Below are positions 50,201 to 52,535 of a stretch of 64,000 nt of DNA, piece by piece. Position numbers and translations under genes: made by a program. Every line of letters begins with the position of its first letter. Within the stretch, counting starts at the first letter, position 1. The stretch comes from Streptomyces sp. NBC_00271 (GTDB lineage Bacteria > Actinomycetota > Actinomycetes > Streptomycetales > Streptomycetaceae): the NCBI RefSeq assembly GCF_036178845.1, contig NZ_CP108070.1, forward strand, positions 6,510,001 to 6,574,000, in the 5' to 3' direction. The notes below the pieces were generated by a model. It was not told the DNA's origin. It was given only the letters and a program-made list of their open reading frames with translations, and searched no databases.

Positions 50201-52535
50201 CACCTCGGGTTCCACCGGCCGCCCCAAGGGGGTCGCGGTCTCCCACCGGGGGCTCGCCAACCATCTGGGCTGGGCGGTCCGCGAACTCGTCGGCGCGGGC
50301 ACCGGCGGCGGTGCGGTCTTCTCCTCGGTCGCCTTCGACCTGGTCGTCCCCAACCTGTGGGCGCCGCTGCTCACCGGCCGGCCCGTGGTGCTGCTGCCGC
50401 AGGATCTCGACCTGTCCGAGCTGGGGGAGCGGCTGCTCGCCCATGGCCCGTACGCCTTCCTCAAGCTCACCCCCGGCCACCTGGAGGTGCTCTCCCACCA
50501 GGTGAGCGACGAGCAGGCCCGGGACCTCGCCGGAGTGATCGTGGTCGCGGGCGAGGCGCTCCAGGGCGAACTCGCCTCCCGCTGGGCCGAGGTGCTGGGA
50601 GCGGGTCGGCTCATCAACGAGTACGGGCCGACCGAGGCCTCCGTCGGCACCAGTGTCCTTCCGCTGACGTGGCCTCTCGCCGCCGAGGTGGTGCCGATCG
50701 GGCGCCCGCTTCCCGGCATGGTGATGCGCGTCCTGGACGGCGGGATGCGCCGGGTACCGGCCGGGGCCGTCGGCGAGCTGTACGTCGGCGGCACCGGAGT
50801 CGCCCGCGGCTACATCGGCCGCGCCGCCCTGACCGCCGAGACGTTCCTGCCCGACCCGTACGGCCCCCCGGGCGCCCGGATCTACCGCACCGGCGACCTG
50901 GCGCGCTGGCTGGCCGACGGCACGGTCGAGTTCCTCGGCCGCGCCGACGACCAGGTCAAGATCCGCGGCTACCGGGTGGAGACCGGCGAGATCCAGGCCG
51001 TCCTGCTCGGCCACCCGGCGGTCCGCGCGGCTTTTGTCACGGGCCGCGAGCACGCCCCGGGCGATGTGCGGCTCGCCGCGTACGTGGTGCTCGACGATGC
51101 CATCGAGGCGGGCGCGCTCGCCCGGCACTGCACCGAGAAGCTGCCCGACTACATGGTCCCGGCGACGTTCACGGTCCTCGACTCGATGCCGCTGAACGCC
51201 AACGGGAAGGTCGACCGCAAGGCGCTTCCCGACCCCGAAGCGGCCGACAGCGAGGGCGAGTTCGTGGAGCCCGCCACCCCGACCGAGATCGCCCTCGCGG
51301 CCATCTGGGCGAGGGTGCTCGGGGTGGAGCGGGTGGGCTCCACCGACAGCTTCTTCGCCCGTGGCGGCCACTCCATTCTGGTCATCCAGGTGGTCGCCGC
51401 CGCCCGCGAGGCCCAGCTGCCGCTCTCGCTGTTCATGCTCTACCAGCACGAGACGCTGGCGGAGCTGGCGGCGGCCGTCGACGAGGCGGTCGCGGCCGCC
51501 GCGCCCAAGCCCGCCCCCGTGCCCGCCCCGGCGAGCCTGCTGCCGGTGCCGGCCGAGGTGTTGGAGCGGTACCGGGTGCCCGGGGTCAGCGTCGCCGTCA
51601 TCATCGGCGGCGAACTGGTCGCCGCCGAGGCACACGGCCTCGCCGCGGGTGGGGTCCCGGTCACGCCGGTCACGACGTTCCAGGTCGGCTCGCTCAGCAA
51701 GCACGTCACCGCCTTCGGCGCGCTGCGGCTGGTCGGGGACGGGGTGCTCGCCCTCGACGAGGACGTCAACACCTATCTGCGCGGCTGGCGCGTGCCGGAC
51801 GGTGAGGTCCCGGTCACGGTACGGCAGTTGCTCGGCCACCTGGCCGGTCTCACGCCGACCCCGGGCAAGGGCTTCCAGCCCGGCGACGCCGTACCGACCC
51901 TGCTCGACCTGCTGCACGGCAGCGGGCCCGCGACGACCGCCCCGGTCGGCCGGGACCTCGAACCCGGCACGGTCTTCCGCAAGGCCAACGTCCATTACTC
52001 GGTGCTCCAGCAGGCCATGACGGACGCCACCGGCGAGCCGTTCCACCAGCTGATGCGGACCCTGGTGCTCGACCCGCTCGGCATGCGGGACAGCAGCTTC
52101 GACCAGGGCTTCCCCGTCATGCCGGGGCGCGTGGGCAAGGTCGCGCTCGGTCACGACGCCGAGGGCCGGCAGATCGAGGGCGGCCGCCGGATCCGCCCCG
52201 ACGCGGCTGCCGCCGGGCTCTGGTCCACCGCGCCCGACCTCGCCAAGCTGGCCCTGGAGATCCGCCGTTCGGCGCTCGGCAGGCCGCTCGCGCTGCTGCG
52301 TGAGGAGACGGCGGCCGAGCTGCTCACGCCCCACCGGGACACCTTCTACGGTCTGGGCACCGTGGTCGACGCCACCGGCGCCGACACCCAGTTCGGCCAC
52401 GGTGGCACCCCGACGGGGTACCACGGGGTGTCCGTCACCCGGCTCACCGCGGGCTCCGGACTGGTCGTGCTGACCAACGGGGACGCGGGCGAGCACGTGG
52501 TCAAGGCAATCGCCGCCGCCATGGACACCGTCTGA
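32211..52535 (+). CDS. Giant six-module NRPS with C-terminal beta-lactamase/PBP-type thioesterase
   Basis: 6774 residues. Approximate order: C1 45-490, A1 507-1015, T1 1028-1105; C2 1117-1565, A2 1575-2078, T2; C3 2177-2625, A3 2637-3148, T3; C4 3243-3692, A4 3707-4212, T4; C5 4307-4742, A5 4767-5277, T5; C6 5376-5828, A6 5848-6340, T6 6354-6428; thioesterase 6444-6774. All T domains have the modified Ser (GGDSI or GGHSI) and all A domains the NGK Lys. Hand-read pockets: A1 and A3 DVFSVAMVH, A5 DVFSIAMVH (Thr-like scaffold, altered pocket), A2 DLPKVGEVG and A6 DLPKVAEVG (Asx-like), A4 DIWEVTADD (acidic pocket, perhaps a basic residue). C1 has HHIACDA; C2-C6 have xHxxx(E/D)GWS. The last domain has S6494-L-S-K6497, K6591-A-N and H6730-G-G, as in serine beta-lactamase-type macrocyclases. 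No epimerization domain is recognised. Confidence 0.95.
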   Translation: MSTEEATTAVPAPSGASLRDELLRRRLAGRRGARRDEITRADRGAPLALSAGQQQMWFLNRLEPDSTEYLVPLVLRLRGTLDAAALGRAFETIAARHEILRTRYAFENGGPVQVVDAPGARALPLPVVPLTGAPAAERERKATEVLREQLATGFDLATEWPVRGTLLRLADDDHILAFVFHHIACDAWSTRVFGGELSALYAAFVSGREAQLPPLTLQYADYAAWQRQQLTGPGAEAHLDYWRERLAGVEATDLPTDRPRPAVRDHAGADLDFELPDGLADRVREAALNHDTTPFTVLLTAYQTLIARYTGKRDVTVGTVVSGRGRPELQQLIGYGINTLVMRAEWDDQATFGGLVASGRRHILDAFDHQQVPFAQLVDELQPERDQSRTPLYQVAFTLHEWRLDSFELPGLTVDPFGDSDGIAKCDLALQVQELPDGSFRARFQYATALFDQSTVRRLAGNFVRLLDQVLNAPDTPLEAIDILSEAERAIVTGALDGHRTTEPVTSLAHELFEEWVVGSPGSVAVVAGGLSLSYGEVNERANRLAHVLRAAGVGPEDLVGVHLERGGDLVPTLLGVLKSGAGYLPLDPANPVERLGFVLGDAGARVVVTTSALLPSLSGVYAGAVVVLDAEETCAALAAASVENPVRVSDPDNVIYTIYTSGSTGRPKGVVLTHANVVRLLETAQEHYGFDESDVWSMAHSYAFDVSVFEMWGALAHGGRLVVVPQAVTRAPEEFLDLLVGEEVSVLSQTPTAFRSLVAAAASGDRRVHELSLRAVVFAGEKLEVSELRPWTDLLGLDAPALVNMYGITETTVHTTYHKVEEQDVDGLAANRVGYPLSDLSVYLLDASGSLAPVGVPGEIHVAGPGVARGYLGRPDLTAERFVPNPFGPAGARMYRSGDLARRREDGSLEFLGRIDDQVKIRGYRIELGEISAALTAHEDIAQAVVVVREDTPGDKRLVGYLVPARSGAGLPVAEIRAALARELPEYMVPAAFVALDTIPLTTNGKLDKRALPAPDAALQLRAAGEFTAPRTPDEESVAAVWRSVLGVDRVGVHDSFFELGGDSIRAVALVGELREAGHEVAVRDVFDCRTVARLTELATGRPAATAGAERRVAPFELIGDEDRAVLPADVVDAYPLGQNQLGMVIEMLMDDGRNHYHNVSTFRIRDEHPFSLDALVEAGRIVTARHEVLRTSIDLASYSRPLQLVHATAELPITAQDLTGLDAEQVEAALRAFTVAERARLFDLAVPSLMRFHAHTTDDGGWWISVTECHPILEGWSHHSLLMELLTTYQVIRDGRDPEPTELPSLRFADFIAGELAALDSADDRAYWAEVTENHAKFILPTTWGEPGAAHTTFQTGISWQDLEPGLRALATAADASLKSVMIAAHLKVLGQLTHEQAFHTGLVCDARPEETGADRVYGMYLNTLPFPHTKGARTWRELVGRTFAAEVELWGHRRYPLPAVQRDWGGTGRLMDVYFNYQDFRQVDTDLVDELAGIDDSPTEFPLSVSSRAGHVILTADTRAVTPAHAERLAEMYRSVLEAMAADADGDATRTFLPEGERAALLAAAEGPATEPVSRTALDAILATAARTPGAVAVRDASGSLDYAGLSARSGALARRVRAAGAGPESVVGVLLDPTVDLPVALLAVWRAGAAYVPMDASWPTERIATVVADAGCPAVVTQAEYADRFAGFGGRVLLVDEDAGVRGIGEGAEVLDPNPLPGADPEQLAYVIYTSGSTGRPKGVQITHRSLAGYLDWAVTDYFGGAPGDTALFSSVAFDLVVPTLYAPLMTGGALNLFGSERDLSELGDWLAESGPYGFLKLTPGHLEMLGQQFDGERAYGLAPVLVVGGEALLSRTAERWLDLVGGGRVVNEYGPTEITVGNSVHDVTGPQATEIVPVGRPLPGTTMHVLDDNLQPVPVGGTGELYVGGHGLARGYAGRPAQTAASFLPDPFGPAGARLYRTGDLARVLADGTVDFLGRIDGQVKIRGYRVEPGEIEAVLGSHPAIGEARVRVHESATGKQLVAYVVPVVPEGELPPHAELDAYAADRLPPYLLPSAYLALERIPLTANGKLDQRALPAPDAAAFDAAPHVAPRTPAEERMAAVWAEHLGLERVGVLDSFFQLGGDSIRAVGLVGALRAAGFEVGVREVFEKATVAALCESVTGRPAPTAQVTAVEPFALLSDADRALLPEGLSDAYPLSQNQTGMLVETLASDGRNNYHDLTSFLVRDGAPFDFGALQRAVEVVGARHDILRTSVDLTGYSVPMQLVHSEVAIPLDRADVRHLDEDRLAAELAEFAATERATLFDMTSSAPLLRIFVHVQSDAAWRLTFTKSHAMLEGWSYHTLLNELVEVYRALRDGAEPAPYEAPPVRFADTVAAELASLDDAEDRAYWQGIVDTHTPFALPADWHGDRTAPPETVGAGFSFRDLEPALRGLATKAGVPIKAVLHAAHLKVMSQLTDEERFFTGIVGHQRPEVPGSERLLGMYLNTMPHAHDRSSRTWGELARQAFDGEVAAWPHRNFPLPAIESGGRRLIDVYFVYLDFHLVGEDQVVDEGNGINSSSTEFGLGVTAIGGFISLRASSHVLSAENAERVAGMYRSVLEAMAVEGIDGDARAVRVTAGEYDLLVRDARTPGSEVTSLAHELFEEWVVGSPGSVAVVAGGLSLSYGEVNERANRLAHVLRAAGVGPEDLVGVHLERGGDLVPTLLGVLKSGAGYLPLDPANPVERLGFVLGDAGARVVVTTSALLPSLSGVYAGAVVVLDAEETCAALAAASVENPVRVSDPDNVIYTIYTSGSTGRPKGVVLTHANVVRLLETAQEHYGFDESDVWSMAHSYAFDVSVFEMWGALAHGGRLVVVPQAVTRAPEEFLDLLVGEEVSVLSQTPTAFRSLVAAAASGDRRVHELSLRAVVFAGEKLEVSELQPWTDRLGLDAPALVNMYGITETTVHTTYHKVDGVDLARPATSRVGHPLSDLSVLLLDADGRPVPVGVPGEIHVAGPGVARGYLGRPDLTAERFVPNPFGPAGGRMYRSGDVAKRLADGGLEVLGRIDDQVKIRGYRIELGEIAAALAAEPSIAQAVVVVREDTPGDKQLVAYAVPAEGGLADPRTLRESLGRALPDYMVPALFVALDTIPLTTNGKLDKRALPAPDRSDLAVAAGSVAPRTPQEQRLALIWADALGLDSVGVEDAFFDLGGDSIRAVALVGAMRAAGLDVSVRDVFERRTIASVAELLAGRTAPVEEFRTVERFAMISAADRALLPVGVVDAYPLTQVQTGMLVEMLAGSRDGAPAAYHSTASYKVRDERPFDADALRAAVRTVTARHEVLRTSFDLSTASRPLQLVHASAGTPVAVHDLSDLDAAGVDAALRAHQAAERAEVLDPAVAPQLRVAAHVVGDGWWLGLTQSHLITEGWSQHAMLMEIIACYRAFAAGRAPETYQAPDVRFADTVAAELASLESAEDRAHWQGVVQGYTPFVLPADWADRTGAAEDYAVTVELMDLEAPLRAFAARAGVSVKSVLLAAHLKVLSQLTDEPAFHTGLICDTRTEVLGSDRVFGMYVNTLPFPHTRTARTWRELVRQVFDREVALWPHRRFPLPEIQRTAGTAGRLIEVIFNYQDFHNLDGRQLDLAAGLGSGSTEFALEVSTSGGGLALKTDTSVLGRDAADRLAAMYRSVLEAMAVEGVDGDARTTRLCAADAELLGSWADTARTPSWISIEREFERYAAKYPDRPAISDDTSALSYAAANAEANRLARHLRGLGVGPDTVVGISADRSPKTVLAVLAVLKAGGAYLPLDPGYPASRLAFMAADARVKVLITQGSYADALAGIDAAAVLLDEPADWAAQEATDLPETAHPDDLAYVIYTSGSTGRPKGVHVHRHGMANHLLAKVEDLELTGADSIVQNASMAFDISVWQMLAAFAVGGRVRVADADTALDPLSLFPRTADEHITVLEVVPSLLRAALDAMDAGALEVRLPSLRWMVVTGEALPPDLCRRWFDRFPHVPMVNAYGPTECSDDITHALIRSGDEIGDTRVTIGKPVRNFRLYVLDEHLAPVPVGVPGELYAGGVGVARGYGGRPGLTAERFVPDPYGPAGSRLYRTGDVVAWNREGDLEFLGRVDHQVKIRGQRIELGEIEAALVDRPEVADAAAVVREDTPGVQLLVAYLVPAEDDTLDVAALRAELAEQLPPAMVPGAYVTLDALPLTPNGKVDRRGLPVPEADADADAAYAEPTTEAERVVAEVWEQALGARRIGAQDGFFDRGGDSIRAVTVVGALRGRGYDVSVRDVFEHRTVAALAELAAGRDKLTAQAGAVRPFSLIGAADRGLLPADAVDAYPLGQVQLGMVAELLSENGRNNYHTVVSKRIRDDRPFDADALRAAVRTVTARHDTLRTSVHVTGYGVPMQVVHATAEVPVRIDDLRKTGPVDGERELLAYVAAERADLFDFRVAPLLRVAIHLESDDAWWLTLTQSHVIVEGWSQHTLEMELVNAYREFRDSGESAPYQAPPVRFADFVAGELDSLDSAADRAYWERIVKEHARLAPPAAWAGDPATAEPYGIDVPLDSLAEALRARAAEADVPLKTVLLTAHLTVMGRLTDAAAFHTGVVFHARPEAVGADQVIGMHLNTLPFAHERGARSWREAIVQVFRRETEIWAHRRYPLPAIQRAWGGRRRLLDVHFNYIDFHQTDTDLVDTGTGISEAPTEFGLSVHAHGDRKIGIHSDTGLITRANGELLARMYREVLESIANGLDGEIGLDGEIGLDEFGTTEPVQGEAEVGVLAHELFEEWVVGSPGSVAVVAGGLSLSYGEVNERANRLAHVLRAAGVGPEDLVGVHLERGGDLVPTLLGVLKSGAGYLPLDPANPVERLGFVLGDAGARVVVTTSALLPSLSGVYAGAVVVLDAEETCAALAAASVENPVRVSDPDNVIYTIYTSGSTGRPKGVVLTHANVVRLLETAQEHYGFDESDVWSMAHSYAFDVSVFEMWGALAHGGRLVVVPQAVTRAPEEFLDLLVGEEVSVLSQTPTAFRSLVAAAASGDRRVKRLSLRAVIFAGEKLEVSELQPWTDRLGLGRTSLVNMYGITETTVHTTYHRLTKRDFAPGAGNPVGRPLADLTVHLLDAQGAEVPVGTEGEIHVAGPGVARGYLGRPDLTAERFVPNPFGPAGGRMYRSGDLARRREDGSLEFLGRIDDQVKIRGYRIELGEISAALTAHEDIAQAVVVVREDTPGDKRLVGYLVAAGQFLPDAGALRAHLARTLPEYMVPAAFVALDTLPLTTNGKLDKRALPAPEEGGQLRSAAGYVAPRTAIEAQVAAVFQSVLGVDKAGVHDSFFDLGGDSIRAVLLVGTLRDAGYELSVRELMERPVLGRLAELLAGRTGAAPAAAPAPVAPYAQISTADRELLPAGVVDAYPLTQNQLGMQIEMLSAPERPDYHLVTSLRLRDARPFDAAAFQRALDALVARHDVLRTSVDLDTYSVPLQLVHGTTELRLKVVDLTGLGEAGATAAIEAYVDERGRTALDPAAAPLLDVTVHLCADGSRQLTAVNSHVILDGWSLGGLLTELLALYDGALAGKLPAHEAPAVRFADTVAAEARALESAEDRAHWQAVVAGHERFALPAGWGETDPDASEEMYLLDVGYADLTEGLERLAAQAQAPLKSVLLAGHLKALSLLTPEPAFLTGLTSHVRPEAAGADRVHGMFLNIQPIGYTDGARTWRELVERTLAAELAGWPHRHFPMPAIQREFGDGSRLVEVYFSYQDFTSVAAGQQDLGARVDADASTGASSNEFGFSVGTAPGRLQLRCAPRAVGRAHGERIAALYRQVLVEMAGGADGDARSGCLPPAETGRIAGWEAAPEGATADRPVYEVFAERAARTPDAVAVAGEGFTLTYAELEARSNQIAHHLLAQGVGTESLVGVLLDRGPDLHAALLGVWKAGAAYIPLDPAFPAARIETMLDDAGATLALTGTGYTDRFAAGVTVVDLAADAAAIAARPTAPAGVPGEPDRLAYAIYTSGSTGRPKGVAVSHRGLANHLGWAVRELVGAGTGGGAVFSSVAFDLVVPNLWAPLLTGRPVVLLPQDLDLSELGERLLAHGPYAFLKLTPGHLEVLSHQVSDEQARDLAGVIVVAGEALQGELASRWAEVLGAGRLINEYGPTEASVGTSVLPLTWPLAAEVVPIGRPLPGMVMRVLDGGMRRVPAGAVGELYVGGTGVARGYIGRAALTAETFLPDPYGPPGARIYRTGDLARWLADGTVEFLGRADDQVKIRGYRVETGEIQAVLLGHPAVRAAFVTGREHAPGDVRLAAYVVLDDAIEAGALARHCTEKLPDYMVPATFTVLDSMPLNANGKVDRKALPDPEAADSEGEFVEPATPTEIALAAIWARVLGVERVGSTDSFFARGGHSILVIQVVAAAREAQLPLSLFMLYQHETLAELAAAVDEAVAAAAPKPAPVPAPASLLPVPAEVLERYRVPGVSVAVIIGGELVAAEAHGLAAGGVPVTPVTTFQVGSLSKHVTAFGALRLVGDGVLALDEDVNTYLRGWRVPDGEVPVTVRQLLGHLAGLTPTPGKGFQPGDAVPTLLDLLHGSGPATTAPVGRDLEPGTVFRKANVHYSVLQQAMTDATGEPFHQLMRTLVLDPLGMRDSSFDQGFPVMPGRVGKVALGHDAEGRQIEGGRRIRPDAAAAGLWSTAPDLAKLALEIRRSALGRPLALLREETAAELLTPHRDTFYGLGTVVDATGADTQFGHGGTPTGYHGVSVTRLTAGSGLVVLTNGDAGEHVVKAIAAAMDTV
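33723..34673 (+). repeat. A-domain core repeat, copy 1 (module 1)
   Basis: About 950 bp covering A1 to A5 motifs of adenylation domain 1. It is nearly identical to 40122-41072 (few silent changes, a short divergent patch near 34580) and to 46521-47305. Codons end in G or T (GGT, TTG, GTG, CAT), unlike the C-ending codons of the flanking modules. Confidence 0.93.
40122..41072 (+). repeat. A-domain core repeat, copy 2 (module 3)
   Basis: Offset 6399 bp from copy 1, starting at GTCACCTCTCTCGCTCATG. The first differences are single silent bases such as ACGCATGCC versus ACACATGCC and CGTATGCC versus CGTACGCC. The encoded specificity pocket is the same as in copy 1. Confidence 0.93.
46428..46474 (+). 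repeat. 18-bp tandem repeat in the C5-A5 linker
   Basis: GGGCTCGACGGAGAGATC occurs twice in a row (46428-46445, 46446-46463) and a third, truncated unit follows. It encodes GLDGEIGLDGEIGLDEF, lengthening the linker just upstream of A-core copy 3. Confidence 0.9.
46521..47305 (+). repeat. A-domain core repeat, copy 3 (module 5)
   Basis: Offset 12,789 bp from copy 1. It is essentially identical from CTCGCTCATG until CGCCGGGT, after which the sequence switches to C-ending codons (KRLSLRAVIF). Short identity returns around GAGAAGCTGGAGGTCTCCG. Copies 1 and 3, but not 2, also share a further stretch over A7-A9 (34906-35100 and 47695-47890). Confidence 0.93.

Follow-up and report, generated by a model that had tools for sequence, protein, structure and literature searches.

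The release end of the NRPS locus

The window (i.e., the whole 64,000-nucleotide stretch of Streptomyces sp. NBC_00271 that was analyzed) contains two nonribosomal peptide synthetase (NRPS) genes, the second of which ends in the release domain considered here. The features are as follows.

23693..25683, + strand, SbnA- and SbnB-type genes, for 2,3-diaminopropionate (TIGR03945, 431.9 bits, cut-off 349.95; TIGR03944, 385.2 bits, cut-off 326.9)
25744..26682, + strand, TauD-family gene
26737..27126, + strand, MbtH-like gene
27229..32214, + strand, starter NRPS gene, A-PCP-C-A-PCP, with no C domain ahead of the first A domain
32211..52535, + strand, six-module NRPS, (C-A-PCP) x 6 with the release domain at its end, a single open reading frame of 6774 aa
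49758..51245 (ends approximate), + strand, last A domain, code DLPKVAEVG(K), in GrsA numbering at what we take to be the code positions
51258..51485 (ends approximate), + strand, last PCP, GGHS at residue 6385
51540..52532, + strand, C-terminal PF00144 release domain (class C beta-lactamase/S12 fold), residues 6444 to 6774
51690..51701, + strand, SxxK motif, Ser6494 and Lys6497 (SLSK)
51981..51989, + strand, Lys6591-Ala-Asn6593, at the YxN motif position
51996..51998, + strand, Tyr6596, the second aromatic residue of that motif
52398..52406, + strand, His6730-Gly-Gly
52624..53598, + strand, carbamoyltransferase gene (OTCase-like), immediately 3' of the NRPS
59040..59960, + strand, separate PF00975 thioesterase gene, 306 aa

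The starter and six-module genes overlap by 4 bases. A domain profile search of the 6774-aa protein found six A domains and 4 + 3 Condensation hits; the latter are read as six C domains, since the protein was split at residue 3400 for the search and the split point cuts one C domain. The distance from each PCP to the next A3 motif is 667 to 674 aa in all five stretches, so that no inter-module epimerization (E) domain fits, and the last PCP motif lies just 65 aa upstream of the release domain, which is too small a gap for a terminal one. The initial annotation's description of a six-module NRPS lacking E domains is thus upheld. Neither NRPS ends in a PF00975 thioesterase, and the two contain no release domain besides the PF00144 one. 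Because it stands as a separate gene, the PF00975 thioesterase is probably of type II. A carbamoyltransferase homolog occurs at or near the same place in 45 of 117 loci. The release domain recurs with 99% identity in a second assembly (Streptomyces sp. NBC_01549), so an assembly fault is ruled out.

Active-site residues of the release domain

PF00144 matches the last 331 aa of the NRPS (E = 1.1e-44), which places the domain in the S12 superfamily by its fold and confirms that a beta-lactamase-like domain ends the NRPS in cis. In the predicted structure (pLDDT 96.2), the protein terminates with the S12 fold. The residues named at the outset (Ser6494, Lys6497, Lys6591, Asn6593, Tyr6596, and His6730) were all found under those numbers in the translation. 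Thus, the SxxK and His motifs of the superfamily are present (SLSK and HGG), and its YxN Tyr is replaced by Lys6591. In profile and multiple alignments, F-S-Y-S-N-T-G-Y of SurE falls on F-R-K-A-N-V-H-Y without a gap; therefore, Lys6591 occupies the Tyr position, as was originally proposed, and it also occupies the corresponding site of the R61 DD-peptidase. The suggestion that Tyr6596 might take the catalytic place fails, since it aligns with the second Tyr of SurE YSNTGY, a position held by Tyr or Phe in 48/48 members of a first homolog set. SxxK is retained in 48/48 members of this set and in 103/105 of a second, and His6730 in 48/48 and 99/105, respectively. Asn6593 is less constant: 46/48 of the first set keep it, against 44/105 of the second, in which Ser is found nearly as often (41/105).

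Spread of the fused domain and loss of the tyrosine

A homologous domain lies at or near the C terminus in 152 other NRPS clusters, so the in-cis fusion is not as unusual as the initial annotation held; 28 of the 392 genomes of the genus carry it, including that of the window. Position 6591 is most frequently Lys (101 of the 152), followed by Tyr (26) and by Glu, Gln, Arg, Leu, Ser, Gly, Asn, or Val (25 altogether). Because of these last 25, Lys is not strictly required in the family. K-A-N is indeed normal in close homologs, and the commonness of Lys, together with the Ser, Lys, and His kept throughout the first set, gives no support to the idea that the substitution marks an impaired enzyme. 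Lys for Tyr is the normal state of a large release-domain family that has drawn little notice.

The domain might still be a degenerate, noncatalytic ornament or gate, with another protein releasing the chain. The absent Tyr, the separate thioesterase gene, and some relatives that look damaged (P0248 and P0253 read ALSQ; P0233, P0235, P0250, and P0251 lack the His) point that way. However, the window copy retains Ser, Lys, Asn, and His, the non-Tyr form makes up a 146-row clade spanning many actinomycete genera, and the two NRPSs offer no other release domain; we regard this explanation as highly improbable.

A tree of 180 rows traces the loss of Tyr to a single event at the root of the 146-row clade. 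An E domain, recognized by motif or spacing, lies between the last PCP and the release domain in 25 of 28 Tyr-type fusions versus 8 of 146 non-Tyr fusions. Thus, loss of the Tyr coincides with loss of terminal epimerization; the point is new, although it amounts to a single historical event. The exceptions include P0225, P0239, and P0240 (Lys with an E domain) and P0266 and P0273 (Tyr without one). The Lys type would have a single origin, out of Tyr-type fusions. As most Tyr-type fusions carry an E domain, the last residue offered to them would be D configured, which suits the D terminus expected in the initial annotation. The absence of an E domain suggests that the window chain ends in an L residue, although the last A domain may itself select a D residue.

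Residue 6591 could instead read the last residue and have no part in catalysis, with Lys accompanying most A-domain codes and other residues accompanying the DV(F/W)-MVH class (perhaps diaminopropionate, which is our guess) or the DxT-EVA class. Across 70 rows, Lys divides 55/59 versus 0/11 (Fisher, 6e-10), ranking this column first in the release domain, and four independent pairs agree in a mean of 3.5 cases with none opposed (P = 0.125). Across 138 rows, Lys is found in 0/9 of each class. However, the larger tree gives only two contrasts on supported branches, 3 of 17 DIW-ADD rows lack Lys although the code is unchanged, 2 of the 9 DV(F/W)-MVH rows (P0248 and P0253) also lack the SxxK Ser and Lys, and the code meanings are tentative. 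We consider this role doubtful.

Proposed release and comparison with known S12 enzymes

On the sequence evidence, the best reading (probability, roughly 0.6) is a working in-cis release domain of the assembly line, acting on an L-terminated peptide. It lies after the last PCP and has the S12 fold, with Ser6494, Lys6497, Asn6593, and His6730 present and Lys at the YxN Tyr site. The peptidyl chain would pass from the last PCP onto Ser6494. Lys6497 would activate this serine, and His6730 and Asn6593 would make up the rest of the site. Since a thioester has a good leaving group, the Tyr may have become dispensable, and Lys6591, in its place, could either provide an extra base or adapt the site to a last residue of L configuration. 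The acyl-enzyme would be resolved, at about even odds, by macrolactamization, an estimate owed to the free amine at which the chain starts; such a free N terminus is not general, as three or four of ten relatives begin with a C domain. Hydrolysis is possible with a lower probability, and attack by another nucleophile is unlikely.

SurE, PenA, Ulm16, FlkO, and WolJ form the SurE family of penicillin-binding-protein-type thioesterases; they are stand-alone, two-domain enzymes that favor a D-configured C-terminal residue, and some take Gly (PMC11735501). The window domain shares their S12 fold, SxxK, His motif, and place in NRPS chain release. It differs in being fused in cis within one 6774-aa frame, in carrying Lys where 30/30 SurE-like loci keep Tyr, and in following a module without an E domain, whose last A domain is not Gly-like. 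It also ends at the S12 fold, whereas SurE has a C-terminal lipocalin-like domain and the SurE-like proteins run at least 40 to 85 aa further. In a tree of rows collected by similarity to SurE or to the window domain, SurE and the 30 SurE-like loci form one clade of 31 (100/100), with the window domain outside in another (100/99). The domain is thus not a member of the SurE family, contrary to the initial supposition.

A close precedent is the SurE domain of BifB (biffamycin), described as SurE-like and, by its authors, as unique within NRPS megaenzymes (PMC13285481). Both are in-cis S12 release domains after a PCP. The window domain might accordingly be a SurE macrolactamase moved into an NRPS, its Tyr changed to Lys by chance. 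This origin, contradicted by the separate clades and the absent lipocalin-like domain, is very improbable; the Tyr is constant on the SurE side, and the BifB-like locus L145 (motif Y-S-D; last A domain Gly-like by eye) groups with SurE. This placement is that of L145, and BifB itself is set apart by its description.

The other S12 enzymes compared (2QMI, IS11 [7SPN], EstB, and the R61 DD-peptidase) are hydrolases or peptidases and not NRPS domains; 2QMI, IS11, and R61 carry Tyr where the window domain has Lys. Its nearest stand-alone relatives are actinobacterial and other serine hydrolases with a Y-S-G motif (approximately 40 to 50% identity). Among the matches listed, 94 of 120 short proteins, some of them NRPS ends, keep the Tyr and have Gly in place of the Asn.

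Motif residues of the release domain

The features considered here are the following.
32211-52535 (+): six-module NRPS gene (6,774 aa)
Residues 6444-6774 of its product: C-terminal release domain (PF00144, S12 fold), with S6494 and K6497 (SxxK), K6591-A-N6593 at the YxN place, Y6596, and H6730 (HGG)

Tyr serves as the general base in class C enzymes, and the initial annotation, which remarked on a Lys in the place of Tyr, took this as its premise. The oddity is real: the F-R-K-A-N-V-H-Y stretch of the release domain aligns without a gap to F-S-Y-S-N-T-G-Y of SurE (PBP-type thioesterase family) and to Y-S-Y-S-N-T-N-F of R61, so Lys6591 occupies the Tyr place and Tyr6596 corresponds to the second aromatic residue. 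Tyr6596, which pairs with SurE's second aromatic, is ruled out as the catalytic Tyr; its position holds Tyr or Phe in all 48 NRPS homologues of the first set described below. In section 7 of a review (PMC11735501), the PBP-type thioesterase tetrad is given as Ser, His, Asn, and Lys, and Tyr is not named; all four residues are found in the window's release domain. The accessible portions of the open-access literature on SurE contained no statement that Tyr is its general base. Lys at the Tyr place is a lineage trait and no defect, and we reject the reading of the window's copy as a pseudodomain.

Size of the family and history of the tyrosine

A search with the domain inside a long protein yielded at least 48 NRPSs (3,756 to 7,818 aa), and one with a shorter frame yielded at least 115 (1,773 to 4,954 aa), overlapping the first set in part. 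Together they comprise at least 152 distinct NRPS clusters besides the window's, with their homologous domain at the C-terminus or close to it (partial proteins included; P0169, the window's own protein, kept out); since 791 and 7,985 candidates were scored, 152 is a lower bound. Among the matches listed (n = 152), the residue equivalent to 6591 is Lys in 101, Tyr in 26, Glu in 9, Gln in 6, Arg in 3, Leu and Ser in 2 each, and Gly, Asn, and Val in 1 each. At 1e-40 or better, 28 of 392 genomes of the genus had a match (the window's own counted in), and 30 of the 32 matches sit in open frames of >800 aa. The class-wide survey found matches in 7 of 394 genomes, five of them belonging to the genus. 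Streptomyces sp. NBC_01549 shares 99% identity over the release domain.

Several homologues depart from the common pattern. In two NRPSs (P0248 and P0253), ALSQ replaces SxxK and 126 to 128 residues follow the domain; judging from these changes, the release domains are probably inactive, with something added. Four others (P0233, P0235, P0250, and P0251) have Ala for the HGG His, all with a last A code of the DVWS-(A)VH type. A short separate Streptomyces protein (P0159; 336 aa), with K-E-G at the motif, is sister of a fused domain in one tree and is perhaps an in-trans version.

The trees were built after removal of the motif columns. In the 180-row tree, a single change separates Tyr from non-Tyr, and it falls at the root of a clade of 146 rows (SH-aLRT, 99), the sister of which consists of two Tyr-type fusions (P0245 and P0266; support, 94). 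Outside this clade, the 34 Tyr rows comprise six stand-alone hydrolases plus 28 fusions to NRPSs. On these trees, fusion to the NRPS preceded the loss of Tyr.

The last PCP motif of the window's NRPS lies 65 aa upstream of the release domain; the nearest recognised PCP motif is 485 to 789 aa off in 25 of the 152 homologues (17 of the 25 are Tyr-type). Inserts with HHxxVDxxSW and NYxG motifs were seen by eye; the stretch in homologue P0226 is a C domain plus PCP in place of such an insert. The NCBIfam profile TIGR01720, which we take to be a mark of E (epimerization) domains, passed its cut-off (74.2 bits) in P0046 (Tyr; 82.9 bits) and P0225 (Lys; 83.8 bits), stayed under it in P0241 (44.9 bits), and was absent from the P0251 and P0038 stretches and from the window's stretch in the NCBIfam profile search. 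For a C-domain stretch of the window intended as a control, the listing gave the best 25 of 34 families, which is uninformative on TIGR01720. Across the 174 fused tree rows (i.e., the six stand-alone rows left out), the E motif occurs in 22 of 28 Tyr rows versus 4 of 146 non-Tyr rows (Fisher, 1e-18). Counting E motif or E-sized spacing, the figures are 25 of 28 versus 8 of 146, with four non-Tyr rows without a PCP motif scored as without E.

Tree rows distinguished by E motif or E-sized spacing (P, homologous proteins; L, genomic loci)
Non-Tyr rows with E motif: P0225, P0239, P0240 (Lys); P0237 (Leu)
Tyr rows added by E-sized spacing: P0265, P0270, L047
Non-Tyr rows added by E-sized spacing: P0232, P0241, L040, L076
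Tyr rows with neither: P0266, P0272 (last A code DILQLGVIW, Gly-like), P0273

Since Tyr changed only once, its match with E loss amounts to one historical coincidence. The seven other E changes on the tree left the Tyr/non-Tyr state unaltered, and an independent-pairs test on the tree gave no support for the association. We put at roughly 0.3 the probability of a stereochemical switch from Tyr to Lys; under this tentative reading, the PBP-fold release domain took over L-ended chains after decay of the terminal E domain, either by direct acceptance of L or by its own epimerisation. The latter route would have the acyl-Ser intermediate epimerised with Lys6591 as the C-alpha base; NocTE epimerises its acyl-enzyme in another fold. 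Four E-like stretches in the non-Tyr clade are shortened or motif-broken (P0038, P0232, P0241, and P0251) and would be traces of the switch.

Alternatively, residue 6591 may read the code of the last residue. Among 70 rows, Lys occurs in 55 of 59 with other last A codes versus 0 of 11 with DV(F/W)-MVH or DxT-EVA (Fisher, 6e-10), residue 6591 ranks first of all columns for code association, and an average of 3.5 out of four independent pairs agree, with none opposed (p = 0.125). Lys is likewise found in 0 of 9 and 0 of 9 rows of these two classes in the 138-row table, from which 42 of the 180 tree rows without a readable last A code were left out. However, supported branches of this larger set hold only two contrasts, and Lys was lost in 3 of 17 DIW-ADD rows with the code unchanged. 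Lys also accompanies Gly-like (4 of 5) and DAWQ (5 of 5) codes. This alternative is strong in raw counts but weaker in the larger set with its few independent contrasts, and we retain it as suggestive only.

Assembly line and release

The starter gene (A-PCP-C-A-PCP) overlaps the six-module NRPS gene by four bases, and the two encode eight modules with no space for an E domain. Ten upstream stretches of relatives included six whose starter gene is A-first, accompanied in five cases by SbnA, SbnB, and MbtH genes, and three with a C domain first (L154, L161, and L162); at L160, a Tyr-type locus, the start of a C-first gene was seen. The window contains these further genes, of which the SbnA-to-MbtH set and the carbamoyltransferase gene recur around such NRPSs.
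20771-23575: NRPS gene, C-A, no PCP matched
23693-27126: SbnA, SbnB, TauD, and MbtH genes
52624-53598: carbamoyltransferase gene, after the release domain
59957-63235: NRPS gene, C-A-PCP

The SbnA and SbnB models score above their cut-offs, making 2,3-diaminopropionate a likely building block. Carbamoyltransferase homologues occur at 45 of 117 loci (the window's own and near-copies counted). Our guess is a diaminopropionate- or ureidoalanine-containing peptide, to which the two additional NRPS genes may contribute. Rotihibin is a different product, the line of which finishes in a reductase domain, according to the accessible part of PMC8552735. An SbnB-type gene lies close to an NRPS gene in S. 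scabies (PMC11479980, available text), with no link made to the window; the available text of PMC8748450 and PMC10978974 contained nothing on a release domain of this type.

The A domains at A3 motifs 661, 2794, and 4924 (i.e., in every second module) share almost the same sequence, pointing to recent duplication or gene conversion. The C domains past the first carry (S/C)Hxxx(E/D)GWS in place of HHxxxDG, after GGDS-type PCPs; among the at least 152 homologues, the first His is missing in 309 of 453 C motif matches, 235 of which follow a GGDS PCP.

The place, fold, residues, conservation, and history of the domain are observed. We propose that the acyl chain would be transferred from the PCP to Ser6494, with Lys6497 as partner and Lys6591 close to where the hydroxyl of Tyr would lie. 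A thioester leaving group needs no proton, which may be why Tyr is dispensable. The part of Asn6593 is less sure because many relatives have Ser or Gly there (Asn in 44 of 105 relatives of the second set, among the matches listed). The architecture suggests that the last residue is L-configured. Release by cyclisation is plausible because the chain begins with a free amine; hydrolysis is also plausible, given the lack of a lid and the presence of esterases among the closest structures.

Comparison with SurE and BifB

In a survey of 199 genomes from the genus, a SurE query had 51 matches in 46 of them, located in frames of <800 aa (47 matches), 1,031 to 1,161 aa (three), and 3,098 aa (one; locus L145). 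The L145 match, a true SurE-family domain in cis in an NRPS and BifB-like, has 41% identity to SurE and a Y-S-D motif; an A domain and a PCP precede it, and the last A code (read by eye) is DILQLGVIW, presumably a Gly code. This architecture (i.e., Gly-like last A domain, PCP, and in-cis SurE-type domain) agrees with that of BifB, the biffamycin NRPS, in the accessible text of PMC13285481, which describes a fused domain of the S12 fold. Beyond biffamycin, we found no other such release domain in the accessible open-access literature; most subscription papers lay outside the search, so others may be in print.

In a 57-row tree, the 31 SurE-types including L145 group together (100/100), as do the 11 Lys-clade rows apart from them (100/99), a split expected from rows collected by similarity to SurE or to the window's domain; nothing in this tree puts the latter inside SurE. 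All 30 SurE-like loci have Tyr, and their matched part extends 40 to 85 aa beyond the C-terminus of the window's domain. The reading of the window's domain as an in-cis SurE is ruled out by tree and anatomy.

The Lys-type domains are a second, different lineage of in-cis S12-fold NRPS release domains, recurrent in actinomycetes and belonging to a family of at least 152 NRPS clusters besides the window's. Labelling such a domain a stray beta-lactamase misreads the ends of these assembly lines. Pairs of Tyr-with-E and Lys-without-E domains offer a ready comparison for how the S12 fold reads the C-terminal residue. If the Lys-type domains take peptides with an L-configured end, this would add a stereochemistry not preferred by the PBP-type cyclases characterised so far, as covered in the accessible part of PMC11735501.
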